From a virus: a stretch of 22,801 nucleotides of DNA. The notes beneath the pieces were generated by a model. The model ran no database searches, had not been told where the DNA came from, and worked only from the letters and a program-made list of their open reading frames with translations. Each line of letters begins with the position of its first letter. Position 1 is the first letter of the stretch. A program made the position numbers and the translations under genes. The DNA lies in IMG/VR virus record IMGVR_UViG_3300042448_000683, positions 1 through 22,801 of that record. One strand, given 5' to 3'. This document shows positions 339 through 22,801 of the stretch, piece after piece.

Positions 339-531
339 AGGTGAAAAGGATGGCTCCATACACGATGGAGATGAATGAGAGGGTTAGGATAGTTGCGAAA
401 ATGACTTCGGTTTTATTGCCGAACTTCCTCCATTGGTAGATGGCGGAATCCCACATATGAGCCAACGTGGATAACATGAATACGCCGAAAAGAACGCACA
501 GTGGAATGATGATGAAATATTGAGGCTTCAT
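331..531 (-). CDS. small two-TM membrane protein
   Basis: Encodes 66 residues with two clear hydrophobic segments, about residues 4-25 (FIIIPLCVLFGVFML) and 43-63 (IFATILTLSFISIVYGAIL), joined by a loop with an aromatic and basic stretch (YQWRKFGNK). The start ATG shares one base with the stop of the RuvC-like gene (TAATG), indicating translational coupling. The gene is visibly richer in A and T than its neighbours, which may mean a separate origin or simply many Ile and Phe codons. No family is recognised. Two TM segments and its size would also fit a holin or antiholin, but a better holin candidate exists elsewhere in the window. Confidence 0.65.
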   Translation of the reverse strand: MKPQYFIIIPLCVLFGVFMLSTLAHMWDSAIYQWRKFGNKTEVIFATILTLSFISIVYGAILFTYA

Positions 532-995
532 TAGTTGATGACGCCGCGGGTGGCGGAGTCGAAGATGAGGAGGGCGTCGGCGTTCCAGAGGGTGACGTCG
601 ACGGTGGGGAACAGTTCGGCAGCGCGGGCCTTAAGTTTGTTCTTCCACTGGGTCGTGGTGAGTTCGCCCTTCGTGCCGCAGGTGTGCGTCTTCTGCCAGA
701 TGGCCGGGCGGATGCGGTGAATCTTCCAGCCCATGGCGACGGCGGCGCCGTAGAGGACGCCGGTGTTCCACATGAGTTTGCCGATGGCGGAGCCGGGGAT
801 GTTCTTGCCGGCGAACAGCGGAGGTTCCTCAAGGTAGAGCGAGACGTCCTTGGCCTTGCAGCTGAGATCCGCGAGCAGTTGGCAGACCTCGATGTCTGAC
901 GACGGCATCTTAGCGCACTCGACAGGGTCGCCGTCTGCCGACCAGACGATGCCGCCATTTACGCCAGGGTCGATTGCCACGATGAGATGAGCCAC
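531..995 (-). CDS. RuvC-like Holliday junction resolvase (RNase H fold)
   Basis: Encodes 154 residues from a GTG at 995, chosen because it falls just after the preceding gene ends at 1007 and immediately before the first beta strand. The N-terminus reads LIVAIDPGVNGG, the RNase H-fold opening of RuvC with the first catalytic Asp at residue 9. A central LYLEEPP (Glu56/57) supplies the second acidic position, and WNADALLIF near residues 137-145 is the typical C-terminal acidic 'aDAlll' motif (Asp140). The segment GKLMWNTGVLYG...RIRPAIWQK matches phage RuvC-like proteins. The known family cleaves four-way DNA junctions, used to debranch replicating phage DNA before packaging. The ERF-like gene downstream supports a recombination role. 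Length is close to RuvC. Confidence 0.75.
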   Translation of the reverse strand: MAHLIVAIDPGVNGGIVWSADGDPVECAKMPSSDIEVCQLLADLSCKAKDVSLYLEEPPLFAGKNIPGSAIGKLMWNTGVLYGAAVAMGWKIHRIRPAIWQKTHTCGTKGELTTTQWKNKLKARAAELFPTVDVTLWNADALLIFDSATRGVIN

Positions 996-1006
996 GGCAA
1001 GACCCT

Positions 1007-5730: not shown

Positions 5731-5925
5731 TTATTCGTTGGGTAAGAGTTCGACTTTGACGAGGGGGCCGAGGTCGACTGGGGTCTGCGGTGAGTCGAAG
5801 GTGACGATGACGCTGGCTCCGTCAGAGGATGCGGGTTCGCCATCACGCTGCGGAAAGACGGCGGCCAGCAGTTCGTAAGGATTTGAAAGCACCGCGCCGA
5901 CCATGGATATTTTGTAAGTAATCAT
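5731..5925 (-). CDS. small hypothetical protein downstream of the tail fibre
   Basis: Encodes 64 residues (MITYKISMVGAVLSNPYELL) from the ATG at 5925, which overlaps the fibre stop in an ATGA junction. Predicted strands (ASVIVTFDS, LVKVELLPNE) and an acidic, Ser-rich loop suggest a small soluble beta-rich domain without membrane segments. Genes in this position are often fibre chaperones or lysis-cassette leaders, but there is no motif to support either. Confidence 0.5.
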   Translation of the reverse strand: MITYKISMVGAVLSNPYELLAAVFPQRDGEPASSDGASVIVTFDSPQTPVDLGPLVKVELLPNE

Positions 5926-8648
5926 GCTTCTAAGATAATTCCTCCAGCAAAACAACGCATCAGGTATCTGACTCCAGCCGAAGCCGTAGCCTCAACTTGC
6001 TCACGATAAAGGCCGCCGTTGTTTGCGGTAACACCCGTAGGGCCTGCCGAGGTCGTTGCCTCCAGGACTCCGTCTAGGTAAAGTGATACATTGCCAGAGC
6101 CGTCAGAGTAAATGACGTAGTCGGTGACTTGGCTTAGGGCCAGAGCCTTAGTAGTAGCAACAGCGGTTTGCGTGCTCCCGTTGTGCACGATCAGATTAAT
6201 GAAGCTTGCGACACCTCCTAGTTTGCTAAGTCCAATGCCAAAGGTTGTCATAGCTCCAGTTGTTGCGGCAGTATAGCCTCCAACCGTGATGCGTGCTGTC
6301 GTATTTGCATCTCCAAGATAGCCAGAATTGGTAAAACCAAACCGACCAAACAGCCAAATCTTCTTTGAGAAATCGACCCTAAGCTCATGAGCACGGCTTG
6401 AAAATACAGACAAGACGCCAGGAACACCAGCGTACCAACCGCCACGACCTACCGAAGCAGTTGTGGTGGTGTACATCTCTCTCCAGCAATTATATCCAGC
6501 GCTAATTTGGCCAGAGCCGCTTATCGAAGTGCTATTTAAGCCTTCAAACCTCGTAGACATTCCTTGAGCTGATGCGAAATTAAAGACCGAAGGATTTAAA
6601 CTAGTCGTCGAAGATGTTTTAGTGATGGCCTGAACCGCAGTCGCAAACGCCGGAACCGCAGTCGTGACAAACGCCGTAGTAGCCAGCGCCGTGGTATTAT
6701 TGCCAGCGGTCTGCGTGACGCCGATCGTCCCAGTCGGCAGGGAGGGCGTGCCGGTGAAGGTCTGAGAGTCTACAGCGGCCCTCGTCGTATCGGTTCCGTG
6801 GACGTGGTCAGCCCTGGCGTAGCGCAAGGAGGTTCCCACGGCGGCAGTGCCGTTGACCAGCGGGGTAGCGGACGCGGCCTGTGCGACGACGTATGCGGTC
6901 GTGGCGATCTGGGTGGTGTTCGTATCGACTGCGGCGGTCGTTGAAAGTGGGACGCCAGTAAACGTCGGACTTGCGAGGTCGGCCTTGCCGGCGATGTCGG
7001 CGGCGACCAGGAAAGACGAAGGGTTCCCGCTTAGAGGATAGTAGAGCCCATTCGCCACAGTGGTCGTCGAGTAGTCCGCAGCTGTGGCGGTCGCCATCGT
7101 GCCGAGGCCGAGGTTCGTGCGGGCCGTGCCGGTGTTCGCCAGACCGCTTAGGTTATCGGCCTTGAGCAGGAAGCCAGTCGGGCCGGGGTAGGCCACGGTC
7201 TGCGTGCTCATGCCCGTCGGGCCGTTGAAGAAAATCTGAGGATACCCGGCGGCAGTCGAAAGCGTCAGCACGTACGAGTTTGCGGTGCTAGACATCCCTA
7301 GGATGCCTGCGCCGATGCTTGTAGTATCAGGAGAACTAGAAACAAGGATGTCGTTTGTGAACGTGGCACCCGATAGGTTCGCCTTCCCCGCAGCCGATGC
7401 GATCGTGAAGTAGGTGCTGGCGGCCGTAGCACTGAGCAGATAAGGCGAGAGAGCCGTGCTTACCTGTGCCGCAGTCTGATAGCCAGCAGGGTTGGTCTGA
7501 AGGTAGTAGGTGCTCGCCGCGTCAGCCGAGGTCAGCAGGCCGAGGGCGCTGAAGGTCTTGTTCTTCCAGAGGTCGGTCGAGGACTCGTAAGCCAGGAGGT
7601 CGTTATTGGCCAGCGTGCCGATGGCCACGTCGTGCAGTTCCTCGAGCTCATAGCCGTTCTGGACCGCGACGAGGATAGTCCCGAGGGTCGGGTGCGAGCG
7701 GATGACGATGCCGACGTAGACGAGATGCTGGGGAGCGGACGGCTTGGTAGTCGTCCAAGTGCCAGCGGTCGTCGGGGAGAGGTACAGCTGCACGCCTTCG
7801 GTCAGCGCCGAGGTGTCGATGTTCTCCAGTTCGCCGCGCACGATGACGTAGCCCGTGCCGTTGTTAGCGATGGCCGTCTTGACGAAGCCGATGGTCTGGG
7901 CGGAGTTCGCGTCGTTGTTAGCCTGGGCCAGCGTGATTAGGGGCTTGTTGCCCGTGGCCCCGCTGATGTAGACGATGGAGCCAGCCGCGATCGTCGAGCC
8001 GGACTGGTTGCGGACTTCGACCTCTAGGTCGCGGGCGACCGCCGTGCCACCAGCGAGAGCAGCCTGGACGAAGGCGGTCGTCGCGAGGGAGGTATCGTTG
8101 TCGCCGAAGGTCGGGGTGACTGCCCGGGCGTCTCCCGTGAAGACTGGGCTGGCCAGCGGCGCGTAAGCCGACAGGTCCACCGTGAGGTTCCCGGTCGTGA
8201 CCGACAGGGGCGACGAGACGCTGGAGATGAAGTCGGGGGTGGTCGTGACTACTTCCCACGCGGCGTTCTTTCGAGCGTACTGCGATCCGTCCGAGGGGGC
8301 GTCGTTGACTACCGCCAGAGAGCCGAGGCCAAGGTTAGTGCGCGCCGTAGGAGCCGAGGGGAGGTCTGAGAGGTTGTTAGCCTTAACTGCGTAGACCGAC
8401 AGGTTGACCGTCGTCCAGTCGGTGTTGTAGTTCGTGCTGTCAATCTTGGTCAGGAACTGCCCAGCCGTACCGCCAGCAGGGACGCCTACGCCAGGGGCTC
8501 CCGCAGGGCCGGGGACGCCGACGCTACCCGTCAGGGTGCCAGGGACGATGCCCGAGATGGTGCCCGAGATGGTGGACTGGTCAGCGGAGAATACCCCCGA
8601 GATGGTCCCGAAGGTCGAAGCCGTCGAGGTGATCGTCGCGTCGGGCAT
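5922..8648 (-). CDS. modular tail fibre / receptor-binding protein
   Basis: Encodes 908 residues, the largest protein here. The N-terminus (1-42) is a Ser/Thr/Gly-rich repetitive segment, followed by a very short collagen-like stretch (about 46-57, GPAGAPGVG). Three fibre repeats of the type 'SP.FTG....L....ttalATTAFV' lie at about 166-198, 559-591 and 629-663. Two copies of '(A)NNLSDL...TARTNLGLG' lie at about 90-109 and 497-516. A globular domain at about 205-341 (NQSGSTIAAGSIVYISGATGN ... ELEELHDV) interrupts them. The C-terminal 220 residues form a beta-rich, LamG-like domain (YVIYSDGSGNVSLYLDGVL) that probably carries receptor binding. Known phage fibres of this type trimerise and bind the cell surface. 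The last 700 bases are visibly more A/T-rich than the rest. Confidence 0.85.
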   Translation of the reverse strand: MPDATITSTASTFGTISGVFSADQSTISGTISGIVPGTLTGSVGVPGPAGAPGVGVPAGGTAGQFLTKIDSTNYNTDWTTVNLSVYAVKANNLSDLPSAPTARTNLGLGSLAVVNDAPSDGSQYARKNAAWEVVTTTPDFISSVSSPLSVTTGNLTVDLSAYAPLASPVFTGDARAVTPTFGDNDTSLATTAFVQAALAGGTAVARDLEVEVRNQSGSTIAAGSIVYISGATGNKPLITLAQANNDANSAQTIGFVKTAIANNGTGYVIVRGELENIDTSALTEGVQLYLSPTTAGTWTTTKPSAPQHLVYVGIVIRSHPTLGTILVAVQNGYELEELHDVAIGTLANNDLLAYESSTDLWKNKTFSALGLLTSADAASTYYLQTNPAGYQTAAQVSTALSPYLLSATAASTYFTIASAAGKANLSGATFTNDILVSSSPDTTSIGAGILGMSSTANSYVLTLSTAAGYPQIFFNGPTGMSTQTVAYPGPTGFLLKADNLSGLANTGTARTNLGLGTMATATAADYSTTTVANGLYYPLSGNPSSFLVAADIAGKADLASPTFTGVPLSTTAAVDTNTTQIATTAYVVAQAASATPLVNGTAAVGTSLRYARADHVHGTDTTRAAVDSQTFTGTPSLPTGTIGVTQTAGNNTTALATTAFVTTAVPAFATAVQAITKTSSTTSLNPSVFNFASAQGMSTRFEGLNSTSISGSGQISAGYNCWREMYTTTTASVGRGGWYAGVPGVLSVFSSRAHELRVDFSKKIWLFGRFGFTNSGYLGDANTTARITVGGYTAATTGAMTTFGIGLSKLGGVASFINLIVHNGSTQTAVATTKALALSQVTDYVIYSDGSGNVSLYLDGVLEATTSAGPTGVTANNGGLYREQVEATASAGVRYLMRCFAGGIILEA
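6660..8153 (-). repeat. dispersed tail-fibre repeat units (three FTG...ATTAFV copies)
   Basis: Three diverged copies of a roughly 33-residue fibre unit lie at 8153-8058, 6974-6876 and 6764-6660. Each opens with FTG and closes with ATTAFV or ATTAYV. They are separated by a globular insertion and by the second TARTNLGLG unit. In known fibres such units form a repetitive triple-stranded shaft. The nucleotide sequences are diverged. Confidence 0.6.
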
Positions 8649-19715: not shown

Positions 19716-21503
19716 TCATGACGGTTGCAAGTCGGTTTCGGCAGTTTCCCGCCCGGCGATGCCCCAGCGGACGGCCGCCAGCAGGGCGAGGATTTCAGTA
19801 TCGAGGGCATGGTTGTCCTTCTTGCCCTGGGGAAGTATCCACATGGGCTTGCCGGTGCGCTTGTCCTTTACGCGGACTTCGGCGCTCAGCTGCTCGACGT
19901 ACTCGGGGGTCGCGTCAAGGGCGTAGGTCCAGACGCGGCGAGCCCGCAGGCCGTGCAGGAGGTCTTTGCCGGCAGTGGCCGAGTGGACGATCAGGATGGC
20001 CCGCTGCGGGATGCCAGGGACGACGATGGACTGCTTCTCGGAGTAGAAGCGGCGGGTCGTGTTGCCGGACTTGTCGGTGACCGCGAAGTCGTCGGAACCT
20101 GAGCCCTTGGCGGTCTTCCAATTACGCTTAGCCGTCTCGCGGTAGACCTCGGTCGTATTGTCGCCTGAGTCGACGAGTACCATGGCATGATGGACGCCGT
20201 GCTGCTTGGCGAACGCCTCGACGTTGCCCCATGAGTCGATACGGGCGAAGGCCATCAGGCGGCTATGCCCGGTCTTAGCCCATCGGCGGACAGTCACCCA
20301 GAAGTGGCCACGCTGGACGTCGACCCCCATCGTGCGGAAAGGGATGCTCCCGGGCACGGCGTCCTTCTGCTCGACGACGCGGGCCTTCGGCGTGATCGCG
20401 GCCTCCGCGTCCCAAGGGTCGGCCATCTTGTAGTTTGCGGCCTCCGCCAGCGCCACCATCTCGCCGCCCTCTTCGCTCCAGGGTAACGCCAGCCGCTTTT
20501 GCTTGAAGATGCGCCGCGGTTCCTCGTCGCCGTATTGGTCGACGGACTCCTTGGCCTTGAGCATCAGCACGCCGAGCTCGCCCCAGCTCATCGTCGCAAG
20601 GCTGTTCCAATGCAGGCCGATGTGCCCGGAGTTGGCGGCGGCCGATGTGGCCACGAAGGTTCCGCGGGCGTTGGCCTCTAGGCGGCTTGCGTTCGTGTCG
20701 GGCAGATGCGTCCGACAGGCCGCGCACTCGTAGGTCGTGCCGACGCTGACCTTGTGCAAGTCCCACGTGCCGGTCGCCTTGGCGTCCTCGGGGAACCTGA
20801 TCTGTTCCCAGACCCACGGCTGAAGGTGGTCGCACTTCGGGCACCTCATGTTCCAGTCACGTTGGTCGGTCGTCTCGTGGAGCTGATGCCACTCTGAACC
20901 GGCCCTCCCGCCCTGAGATAAGAAGATGCGTTTGCCCATCCAGCCGAACGCCGTCACGCGCGCGCTCAGTTCCGCCAAGTGTCCGGGCGGCGCCATCCAG
21001 CACTCGTCGGCGATGGTGTAACGCAGGGACAGGCGCTGAAGGTTGGCCTCGTTCCAGATGCCGCGACAGTAGAGCGTCATGCGGTCGAAGTCCGCAGTGG
21101 TGGAGCGGTCGAGGTCGTCGCCAGAGAGACGCGCCTTCACCGGCGGGCAGTTGTTCCAGACCGGGCGGAGGTAACGCAGGGCGAAGTCCTTGGCCTCTGG
21201 GTCCGTGGCCTGAAGCACCATCGTCGGCCCAGGTGCGTTGGCGATGATGTGACAGGTGAGCAGGCGGGCAAAGAGGGACTTGCCGGACTGGATGCTGGCG
21301 AGGACGGTGAGGAGTTTGGTCTCGGGATCGGCGGCGATGCGTAGCGCCTCGGCCACCCACGGCGTGCGCTCGGAGCGGAACGGCCCGGGCATCGGTGAGT
21401 CAGGGATGGCGTGGACGTTGGACTCAAGCCACTCCACCACGTCGCCCGAGTCTGACGGACGCAGCACGTCACGGCCTACGCGGAGCAGGTCGGCCTTATT
21501 CAT
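19716..21503 (-). CDS. terL: terminase large subunit (lambda gpA-like)
   Basis: Encodes 595 residues (MNKADLLRVGRDVLRPSDSG). The ATPase domain has Walker A ASIQSGKS (69-76) and Walker B YTIADE (162-167, Asp166 and Glu167). A zinc ribbon follows with CPKC (221-224) and CAAC (260-263). The nuclease domain shows GVDVQRG (Asp395), VLVDSGDN (Asp445) and a C-terminal NHALD segment with Asp568, the usual three acidic residues. In the known family it cuts concatemeric DNA and drives packaging into the procapsid through the portal. Large terminases of this type usually generate cos ends. The gene overlaps the small subunit by eight bases. Confidence 0.95.
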   Translation of the reverse strand: MNKADLLRVGRDVLRPSDSGDVVEWLESNVHAIPDSPMPGPFRSERTPWVAEALRIAADPETKLLTVLASIQSGKSLFARLLTCHIIANAPGPTMVLQATDPEAKDFALRYLRPVWNNCPPVKARLSGDDLDRSTTADFDRMTLYCRGIWNEANLQRLSLRYTIADECWMAPPGHLAELSARVTAFGWMGKRIFLSQGGRAGSEWHQLHETTDQRDWNMRCPKCDHLQPWVWEQIRFPEDAKATGTWDLHKVSVGTTYECAACRTHLPDTNASRLEANARGTFVATSAAANSGHIGLHWNSLATMSWGELGVLMLKAKESVDQYGDEEPRRIFKQKRLALPWSEEGGEMVALAEAANYKMADPWDAEAAITPKARVVEQKDAVPGSIPFRTMGVDVQRGHFWVTVRRWAKTGHSRLMAFARIDSWGNVEAFAKQHGVHHAMVLVDSGDNTTEVYRETAKRNWKTAKGSGSDDFAVTDKSGNTTRRFYSEKQSIVVPGIPQRAILIVHSATAGKDLLHGLRARRVWTYALDATPEYVEQLSAEVRVKDKRTGKPMWILPQGKKDNHALDTEILALLAAVRWGIAGRETAETDLQPS

Positions 21504-22038
21504 CGGTGGACAGGTCGGCCTTCACGCGGCGCACCCAAGCCTCGAGAACTTTCACCGCCTTCGCCGGGTTTTCCGGGTTGCACCCTTCGGCCACGTCGAG
21601 GGCGAGTTTGTCGAGTCGGTTGACGATGCCCGCAGTCATGTCGCGCATGGCCTCGGTGGCCTCCTTCGCAGAGATGAAGTCTCGGGCGAGGATGACGCGG
21701 CGTTCCTGTTCGGCCTCGAGCTGCACGAGCGAGCGCAGGCTGGCGTTATAGGCTGACTGGTATTTGCCCTGGTTGGTGTCCCCTTGTTCCATGGCCGCCT
21801 GCCAGACTCCGCGGGCCCGACCCACTAAGGCCCGGTGCTCTTCGATGGTCGAAGACAGGGAGCCGTCGTCGAGCTGATCGGGTGGTGTCGGAGCAAGCCG
21901 CACCCGGGCGTCTTCCTGCGATTGCCTCCAAGCGGTGGCGGCCTCGACTGAGTCGATGGGCATACCCTTCTTGACCAGGATAGAGACGCGCTGGCGGGTC
22001 AGGCCAAGGGCTTCGGCAATCTCAGTTTGGCTGGGCAT
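21496..22038 (-). CDS. terS: terminase small subunit
   Basis: Encodes 180 residues (MPSQTEIAEALGLTRQRVSI). Residues 4-24 are a helix-turn-helix (TEIAEALGLTRQRVSILVKKG) like the Nu1 DNA-binding domain. The rest is a helical, charged region (HRALVGRARGVWQAA ... RRVILARDFISAKEATEAMRDM) suited to oligomerisation and contact with TerL. The small subunit recognises the packaging site on phage DNA. It overlaps the terminase large-subunit gene by eight bases and the upstream nuclease gene by 17 bases. The sequence is characteristic of Nu1-like small subunits. Confidence 0.85.
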   Translation of the reverse strand: MPSQTEIAEALGLTRQRVSILVKKGMPIDSVEAATAWRQSQEDARVRLAPTPPDQLDDGSLSSTIEEHRALVGRARGVWQAAMEQGDTNQGKYQSAYNASLRSLVQLEAEQERRVILARDFISAKEATEAMRDMTAGIVNRLDKLALDVAEGCNPENPAKAVKVLEAWVRRVKADLSTDE

Positions 22039-22669
22039 CGTTCTGAACGGTGTTAACCCACCAGACTAGTTGGGACATCTTGATGACTGGGATGCCGTAG
22101 GACAGGCACTCGGTGACGTAGAAGGCGGCAGGCTCGATGTCGTCCGGCAGCAGGACGCAGACGAAGCGCTTGTTTAGGTGCTTACGATAGACAAGGCACT
22201 GAGCTAGGGCGGTAAGCATACCTTGCGACGAGCATTCTTTCTTAGTCTCGATTGCCCAATTATAGCCGGCCAAGTCTGCCCGCATCTGACAGCCAGGAAC
22301 CTGCACCTCGCGCTGGATGTGGCGAGCGTGCATGATATTTGCGTCCTTGAGCATCTGCTCTGCTTCGATCTGCATATGCAGTTCTGACCCGTGCGACCTT
22401 GAATACGAGCGATCGTCCCACTTGGACTTATTCGGGCTAGGCTTGAACTTATGAATAAGCACCTGGTCTCGCTTACACTTGTCGTAAACACCGGCTTTGC
22501 TGATGGCCCTTCTGACCACCTCGCGTGAGTGCGTAAAGTCAAAAGCCTTACGCGTTGAGTGGATAGTTCCGCAGCGCTTGTACGCTTCGACGATTGCCGC
22601 GTCTCGCTTGGCCTTTTCGGCCCGGGCGGACTCGGCGAGCTGCCGGGTTTTCAAATCACAGGGCTTCAT
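22022..22669 (-). CDS. PD-(D/E)XK nuclease-like protein with N-terminal possible HTH
   Basis: Encodes 215 residues from the ATG at 22669 (MKPCDLKTRQ). Residues about 22-62 are helical (AAIVEAYKRCGTIHSTRKAFDFTHSREVVRRAISKAG), which may be a DNA-binding helix-turn-helix. The C-terminal half is a PD-(D/E)XK domain: HGSELHMQIEAEQMLKDA with candidate motif I Glu102/104, QMRADLAGYNWAIETKKE with Asp132, Glu141 and Lys143, then ALAQCLVYRK with Gln157 as an additional conserved position. Such domains hydrolyse DNA in many nuclease families. The gene is somewhat A/T-rich compared with the terminase. Being just upstream of TerS, it may cut or process DNA for packaging, but could instead be a recombinase, homing-type or restriction-like enzyme. 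Confidence 0.6.
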   Translation of the reverse strand: MKPCDLKTRQLAESARAEKAKRDAAIVEAYKRCGTIHSTRKAFDFTHSREVVRRAISKAGVYDKCKRDQVLIHKFKPSPNKSKWDDRSYSRSHGSELHMQIEAEQMLKDANIMHARHIQREVQVPGCQMRADLAGYNWAIETKKECSSQGMLTALAQCLVYRKHLNKRFVCVLLPDDIEPAAFYVTECLSYGIPVIKMSQLVWWVNTVQNDAQPN

Positions 22670-22801
22670 TGTCAACAGGCTGTTTTGTCGTGGTGACCAC
22701 GTAAGAAAAGGTCGTGGTGTCGGGCCACGCGTGACGTAGGGGGGGGTCTAGGAGACTCCTTAGAGGGGGTATATGGGCCGTTTTCATCGCTTGGGCGTGG
22801 C
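22670..22801. promoter_or_regulatory. right-end non-coding region with CGTGG/CCACG dyads
   Basis: A 132-bp stretch without a gene. CGTGGTGACCACG (22689-22701) is a near-perfect palindrome; CGTGG/CCACG recurs at 22713-22717 and 22725-22729 with a seven-base loop. A run of eight G lies at 22739-22746 and a TCTAGGAG/CTCCTTAGA near-palindrome follows. On the minus strand a TTGACA immediately precedes the nuclease ATG. The dyads are candidate operator or packaging sites. No typical sigma70 -10 is placed. Confidence 0.45.

Follow-up and report, generated by a model that had tools for sequence, protein, structure and literature searches.

A PD-(D/E)XK nuclease gene between cos and terS in phages of about 29 kb, possibly a free-standing homing-type nuclease

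The window analysed here is a 22,801-nucleotide stretch of viral DNA (IMG/VR record IMGVR_UViG_3300042448_000683). Close to its right end, the gene for a 215-residue protein heads a minus-strand run that continues with terS, terL, a lambda-family portal gene and an S49 peptidase gene (Table 1). The gene lies where the initial annotation, made from the sequence alone, had placed it, and its ORF overlaps that of terS, which starts at 22038, by the 17 bp claimed. An alternative TTG start is present at 22675; the TTGAC ahead of the ATG is conserved widely, and in one relative (L049) ATA replaces the ATG. Relatives of the nuclease were found at 40 viral loci, some of them cut by contig ends, at 7 more distant loci and on 1 MAG contig. 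All 44 full-length relatives, not all of them distinct, were intact and motif-bearing, and their overlap with terS was 17 bp in 37 copies and 8 bp in 7. Each of six carrier records held one copy, and in carriers the nuclease is the sole gene between cos and terS.

Table 1. Features of the window discussed in the text
Feature	Position	Strand	Details
RuvC-type Holliday junction resolvase	531..998	-	phrog_1770, E 5e-14
terL, large terminase subunit	19716..21503	-	PF05876, PF20454 (GpA ATPase and nuclease domains); phrog_15
terS, small terminase subunit	21496..22038	-	phrog_57; N-terminal part apparently exchanged together with the nuclease
PD-(D/E)XK nuclease gene	22022..22669	-	215 aa; ATG at 22669, stop at 22022
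Predicted PD-(D/E)XK catalytic domain, residues 91-210	22040..22399	-	E96, D132, E141, K143, Q157, Y161
Predicted N-terminal helical, HTH-like region, residues 1-75	22445..22669	-	AlphaFold2 helices 3-33, 36-42, 49-58, 64-75
Spacer, cos cohesive end to nuclease ATG	22670..22716	.	cos start to ATG 58 nt
Putative cos cohesive-end sequence, TGGCCCGACAC on the - strand, 11 nt	22717..22727	.	deduced from contig ends
Conserved element beyond cos (right-end side), TAAGGAGTCTCCTAGACCCCCCCC on the - strand	22739..22762	.	candidate further part of cos

The cos site was located from contig ends. Upstream of the nuclease gene, divergent contigs end at one common base: among 71 distinct contigs that match terS and end within the flank retrieved (about 5 kb), 26 have the T of TGGCCCGACAC or of one of its variants as their first base (9 carry the nuclease and 17 lack it); a start was counted as exact if it read TGG at one of the known cos-terS spacings. 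On the right side, 26 of 83 stretches stop precisely at the final base of the 11-mer; where a locus did not span its whole contig, its own edge stood in for the contig edge. Three records, G001 (29,207 bp), G002 (28,886 bp) and G003 (28,976 bp), both begin and end on the 11-mer. The simplest reading of all these ends is a cos site with an 11-nt cohesive end, probably a 5' overhang, whose ends were filled in during library preparation. The first base of the 11-mer lies 58 nt before the nuclease ATG in the window, and the predicted cos cut thus falls where the earlier reading of the gene, as one located at the packaging start, would have it. The window contig extends 74 bp beyond cos, into the right genome end. 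There, 12-35 bp beyond cos, is an element in which 7-8 consecutive C come after an inverted repeat resembling AAGGAGTCTCCT; the element is kept in carriers and occurs with changes in non-carriers; it is a candidate for a further part of the cos signal. One contig of 32851 bp (G012, IMGVR 3300042514_000940) has two cos sites 28,230 bp apart, as would arise from a concatemer joint or from the joining of two strains.

Residues 132, 141, 143, 149 and 157 of the protein are D, E, K, Q and Q. The initial annotation had read Asp132, Glu141, Lys143 and a downstream Gln as a PD-(D/E)XK core, and in an alignment of the window protein with 26 relatives 46-98% identical to it (A2) these residues proved invariant: E96, Q100, E121, D132, E141, K143, Q149, Q157 and Y161 are the same in 27/27 rows. 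The pattern D-x(5,14)-[DE]xK-x(8,20)-QxxxY also arises in 362 of 20,000 shuffles of the window protein, so the motif alone is weak evidence for a nuclease, and the assignment is decided instead by the aligned conservation together with the predicted fold. An AlphaFold2 model from A2 had a mean pLDDT of 85.4, with most of the C-terminal half above 90; a narrower alignment (A1) had given a poor first model (pLDDT 60.7), and adding relatives of 46-56% identity raised it to the present value. The modelled order is alpha-beta-beta-beta-alpha-beta (helix 96-109, strands 119-123, 130-134 and 138-142, helix 148-164, strand 169-174).

When residues 91-213 of the model were compared with solved structures, the best match was VC1899 (Z 11.0, rmsd 2.6 over 114 residues), followed by Can2 (10.6), AF1548 (9.5), EndoMS (9.4) and PspGI (9.2), with lower scores for BsaWI (8.3) and EcoRII (7.3); Rab GTPases, which have an unrelated fold, reach Z 7.2 in the same comparison. 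The best 25 VIA rows are mostly what we take to be nucleases of the PD-(D/E)XK superfamily. VC1899/Can2, EndoMS/NucS, AF1548, PspGI and EcoRII have the fold of the catalytic domain in common with the model over about 95-116 residues (Z 7.3-11.0), but they show no significant sequence similarity to it, their accessory domains differ, and the fold does not give the target. Foldseek alone was weak (best E 0.011 in the PDB and 3.7e-4 in a viral library), and several of the best 50 rows from the viral library are annotated as restriction endonucleases. Taken together, the conservation and the modelled fold establish membership of the PD-(D/E)XK superfamily, and nuclease activity is likely. The N-terminal 75 residues are predicted to be helical and HTH-like. 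The helical character of this half, as claimed earlier, is borne out by the model; the helix-turn-helix suggested there is a tentative assignment, the sole HTH profile match being that of one member among the 27 (HTH_48, E 0.068).

Profile searches with the window protein gave no Pfam or NCBIfam match and two PHROG matches of unknown function (best phrog_32486, E 0.0094). Scattered single-member matches among the 27 relatives include pPIWI_RE_REase (E 0.02), no HNH profile matched in the Pfam and PHROG searches, and the family has no name in the profile libraries searched. A synthetic PPR protein was matched in the PDB sequence search (E 4.8e-9 with A1 and 2.1e-7 with A2, summed over repeats). 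Its single repeats had E of at least 0.63, the alignment fell on the N-terminal helices, and the match was set down to a helical-repeat resemblance; the remaining matches in that search were near E 1. No relatives of the nuclease were detected among 50,697 phage records. The sole relative in the genome collection was in an Opitutae MAG, on a contig of 28,157 bp, and a survey of 384 genomes of the class of this MAG gave a convincing copy only in the MAG itself. A weak partial match with an internal stop in another record (G066) was set aside.

Median dN/dS came to 0.067 in the nuclease domain, over 52 pairs, and to 0.18 in the N-terminal domain, over 53 pairs; these were the pairs left of 66, drawn from 12 chosen sequences, after removal of those with dS of 0 or of at least 2. 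Residues 72-125, which span the linker, the first helix and the first strand, exist in clearly different versions in L032-L039 and L042. Since both ends of the gene are alike while its middle differs, recombination within the gene is suggested for these copies, perhaps with a changed target.

The gene is optional. The distance from cos to terS is 689, 677-678 or 644-647 bp with the nuclease and, in most records, 58, 66 or 68-77 bp without it, and all relatives with enough flank lie at this one site, the cos-terS junction. Nine non-carrier records (23-33 kb, some incomplete) yielded no copy; three of them have both ends at cos. One record without the nuclease (G003) has a TerL 99% and a portal protein 100% identical to those of the window. 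Empty sites were found that lack exactly the nuclease ORF and belong to the same TerS class as the carriers: in L142, L144 and L146 the first ATG, which is that of terS, comes 58 nt from cos, directly after a stretch ending in TTTACA. An exact scan for this junction returned five contigs, those of L142-L146. A further comparison, of L147 without the nuclease to L037 with it, gave 93.5% identity over 2.9 kb from terS on, with unrelated sequence further upstream in L147, which may be a chimeric contig; the start of L037 is presumably an Illumina adapter remnant. A TerL tree was built from the 40 of 98 rows (14 of them carriers) that had 1200 nt of clean terL. It requires 12 changes of carrier state, against a mean of 11.7 and a minimum of 7 in 500 label shuffles. 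Carriage thus tracks TerL phylogeny no better than shuffled labels do.

Carriage was examined against the class of TerS in 98 rows with distinct terS starts (37 carriers and 61 non-carriers), at least five of which are short pieces that repeat other records (L184, L186, L187, L190 and L192). The TerS N-terminus was of the MPSQ class in 37/37 carrier rows; in the 61 non-carrier rows it was ALTN-like in 52 and of the PSQ type in 4. For an identity profile, each of 17 carriers was set against the best of 20 non-carriers. In the best-matched pair (L097 with and L055 without the nuclease) identity is 99% over the 900 bp up to cos and the cos 11-mer is identical; it then falls to about 53% across the spacer and the terS N-terminus and recovers to 68% in the middle of terS, 87% at its C-terminus and 95% in terL. 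Across the 17 pairs, identity ranges over 36-53% for the spacer and 52-58% for the terS N-terminus; the 900 bp ahead of cos match at 94% or more in 8 of the pairs and at 50-78% in the other nine. These profiles argue that the nuclease, the cos-proximal spacer and the N-terminal part of TerS move as one block with cos as its left border. In one carrier (L031) the nuclease is 69% identical, TerS residues 1-60 are 72% identical, and identity beyond them is about 40%.

Recent biased spread is the trace expected of active homing rather than its definition, and it was not found. Median divergence of the terS N-terminus was 14.4% versus 16.6% for terL in carrier pairs (91), and 12.8% versus 12.6% in non-carrier pairs (325); because the two genes are equally diverged within each class, there is no sign of a recent selfish sweep in this comparison. 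Pairs in which the terS N-terminus is less than half as diverged as terL numbered 4/91 among carriers and 33/325 among non-carriers, and since they are no commoner among carriers, the terS N-terminus is exchanged independently of the nuclease. The most uniform terS N-terminus is a non-carrier one, common to 29 of 94 rows. The terS classes are therefore old and in the course of being reassorted, with non-carriers exchanging their version as freely.

We consider the gene to be a free-standing homing-type nuclease at the cos of phages of about 29 kb, a reading to which we give roughly even odds (a probability of about 50%). As in free-standing homing genes, the ORF is optional and occupies a fixed site, and relatives keep that site intact and empty. 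A site-specific endonuclease would be formed by a nuclease of the PD-(D/E)XK type and, ahead of it, an N-terminus that is HTH-like and binds DNA; its gene would have been inserted precisely between cos and terS. The enzyme would cut related phages without the gene at their cos-terS junction, and the cut phage, repaired with the carrier as template, would receive the gene and its flanks. It might in addition nick or process its own cos end, a partial recruitment to packaging. This reading fits best because the insertion is exactly ORF-sized, carriage is patchy and the block is exchanged as a unit; the invariant catalytic residues, the predicted PD-(D/E)XK fold and the 44/44 intact copies also count for it. 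Against it count the lack of decayed copies among the 44 sequences checked, as a cycle of invasion and decay predicts some, and the single site shared by all flanked relatives, which fits a packaging role too. On balance we would sooner class the nuclease as a selfish or borrowed gene, lodged where packaging begins, than as something the packaging machinery requires.

An accessory of packaging, as the initial annotation had proposed, is the alternative that survives best, although we regard it as doubtful. The nuclease would help the terminase to cut or process cos, like GP74 of phage HK97 with another fold, and would be matched to its TerS class and spacer. The gene lies 58 nt from cos as the first of the terminase operon, overlaps terS in every one of the 44 full-length copies, all intact, and has a low dN/dS (0.067); the MPSQ class of TerS, found in all carrier rows, occurs in only 4/61 non-carrier rows. 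GP74 promotes cos cleavage in vitro, according to the accessible part of its description (PMC9410871). Such a role fits poorly with the dispensability of the gene: relatives without it have the same TerL, 99% identical in one case (G003), and cos ends of the same kind, and the MPSQ class also occurs without the nuclease (L142-L147). Nor does the HNH gene found at some right ends act as a consistent substitute, being present in 0/19 carrier and 4/30 non-carrier rows.

It is rather unlikely that the nuclease, the cos-proximal spacer and the DNA-binding domain of TerS form one exchangeable cassette of cos specificity, bounded on the left by the cos cut, with the nuclease cutting the packaging-start region of rival phages that have the other cassette. 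If so, the genomes of rivals would be packaged in mixed infections only after conversion to the cassette of the carrier, and homing would be aimed at, or domesticated for, a packaging signal.

We think it improbable that the nuclease is an offensive, restriction-like enzyme attacking host or rival phage DNA with no copying of itself. PspGI, BsaWI, EcoRII and Can2 are among its fold neighbours and its distribution is patchy, but a PADLOC search for defence systems gave no match, the nuclease stands alone between cos and terS in its carriers while in other phages (L084 and L120) a methyltransferase gene is found there instead, and the site at cos is single and fixed. Least probable is that the nuclease acts on branched structures (Holliday junctions or replication forks) and clears them ahead of packaging or in its course, an idea also raised by the initial annotation: it would suit the position beside the terminase and the fold matches to AF1548 (Z 9.5) and, weakly, Mus81-Eme1 (Foldseek probability 0.30), but the phage already has a RuvC-type resolvase (phrog_1770), with orthologues in all five records compared, with and without the nuclease; besides being optional, the gene is also restricted to the cos-terS junction.

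Among known systems, GP74 of HK97 is similar in being a small phage nuclease with its gene next to cos and to those of the terminase; it differs in being an HNH enzyme, and the present gene lies between cos and terS and is missing in relatives with near-identical terL. Free-standing phage homing endonucleases (HNH, GIY-YIG T5orf172, EndoVII-type F-CphI) are also optional genes between conserved elements and, in the accessible portions of the literature, often lie near the terminase; the present gene is set apart by its predicted PD-(D/E)XK fold, its position exactly at cos and the absence of decayed copies in the set checked. In its accessible portion, one paper counts PD-(D/E)-XK among the homing families and describes free-standing homing genes as optional ones flanked by conserved genes (PMC6083498). 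The region upstream of the terminase is described as a hot spot for HEG-like nucleases, and the HK97 HNH protein is discussed as a possible domesticated one, in the accessible text of Barth, Dunham and Seed (2023, PMC10448857). The earlier suggestion of a function not usually named thus holds as far as the lack of a library name goes, and fails in that GP74 beside cos and the homing-nuclease hot spot have been described, as the accessible parts of two papers attest (PMC9410871, PMC10448857). The titles and abstract openings of the literature searched mention no PD-(D/E)XK gene placed between cos and terS, a weak negative. The locus would add a second nuclease fold at a place whose occupant has been argued to be either a packaging factor (HK97 GP74) or a genome-end homing gene. 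Contig ends place cos to the base, and natural pairs exist that carry or lack the gene and are otherwise close; these matched phages make the question of packaging versus homing testable, and the exchange of a cassette bounded by cos may help to show how cos phages change their packaging specificity.

Other genes were also found around cos. L084 and L120, which lack the nuclease, have a methyltransferase gene and a small ORF (70 aa) between cos and terS; the methyltransferase of L120 has N6_N4_Mtase (PF01555) and ParB_N (PF02195) domains. The TerS of both has another N-terminus. Given this methyltransferase and the HNH gene before cos, the surroundings of cos appear to be a slot for optional DNA-modifying genes. 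The usual last gene before cos encodes a conserved protein of about 170-190 residues and ends about 56 bp before cos; its product has an HTH-like C-terminal part in L004, L097, L055 and others. The RRHVE..RW motif of this protein was present in 53/53 rows with at least 544 bp beyond cos, and a composite query for it gave no match to Pfam or PHROG families. Between its gene and cos, a few non-carriers (L113, L153, L087 and L142) have an optional HNH/endonuclease VII-like gene, which also lies right before cos at the right ends of G002 and G003; the frame in L142, one of the four counted, has a stop inside the HNH region and may be decaying. The counts of this gene given above come from rows with at least 700 bp beyond cos, which include none of the five repeated short pieces, and give a Fisher p of 0.15; a further non-carrier with the gene (L087) had been merged into L109 by de-duplication. 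A strict swap of the nuclease for the right-end HNH gene was tested, and the rows were too few to show exclusion.

The host of these phages is probably a member of the Verrucomicrobiota, given the contig of the Opitutae MAG and the TerL match to Verrucomicrobia phage P8625, which has the best E-value (9e-32, 23.5% identity) among the named phages listed (30 of 213). P8625 similarly carries a gene annotated as a Holliday junction resolvase and has a methyltransferase gene near terL; it differs in its distant TerL, and no relative of the nuclease was detected in the phage collection. A further ORF of the window, at 5922-8648 on the minus strand, encodes 908 aa and has no Pfam match. Its orthologues vary from 832 to 1105 aa in relatives whose structural genes are near-identical, and it is possibly a receptor-binding or fibre protein.
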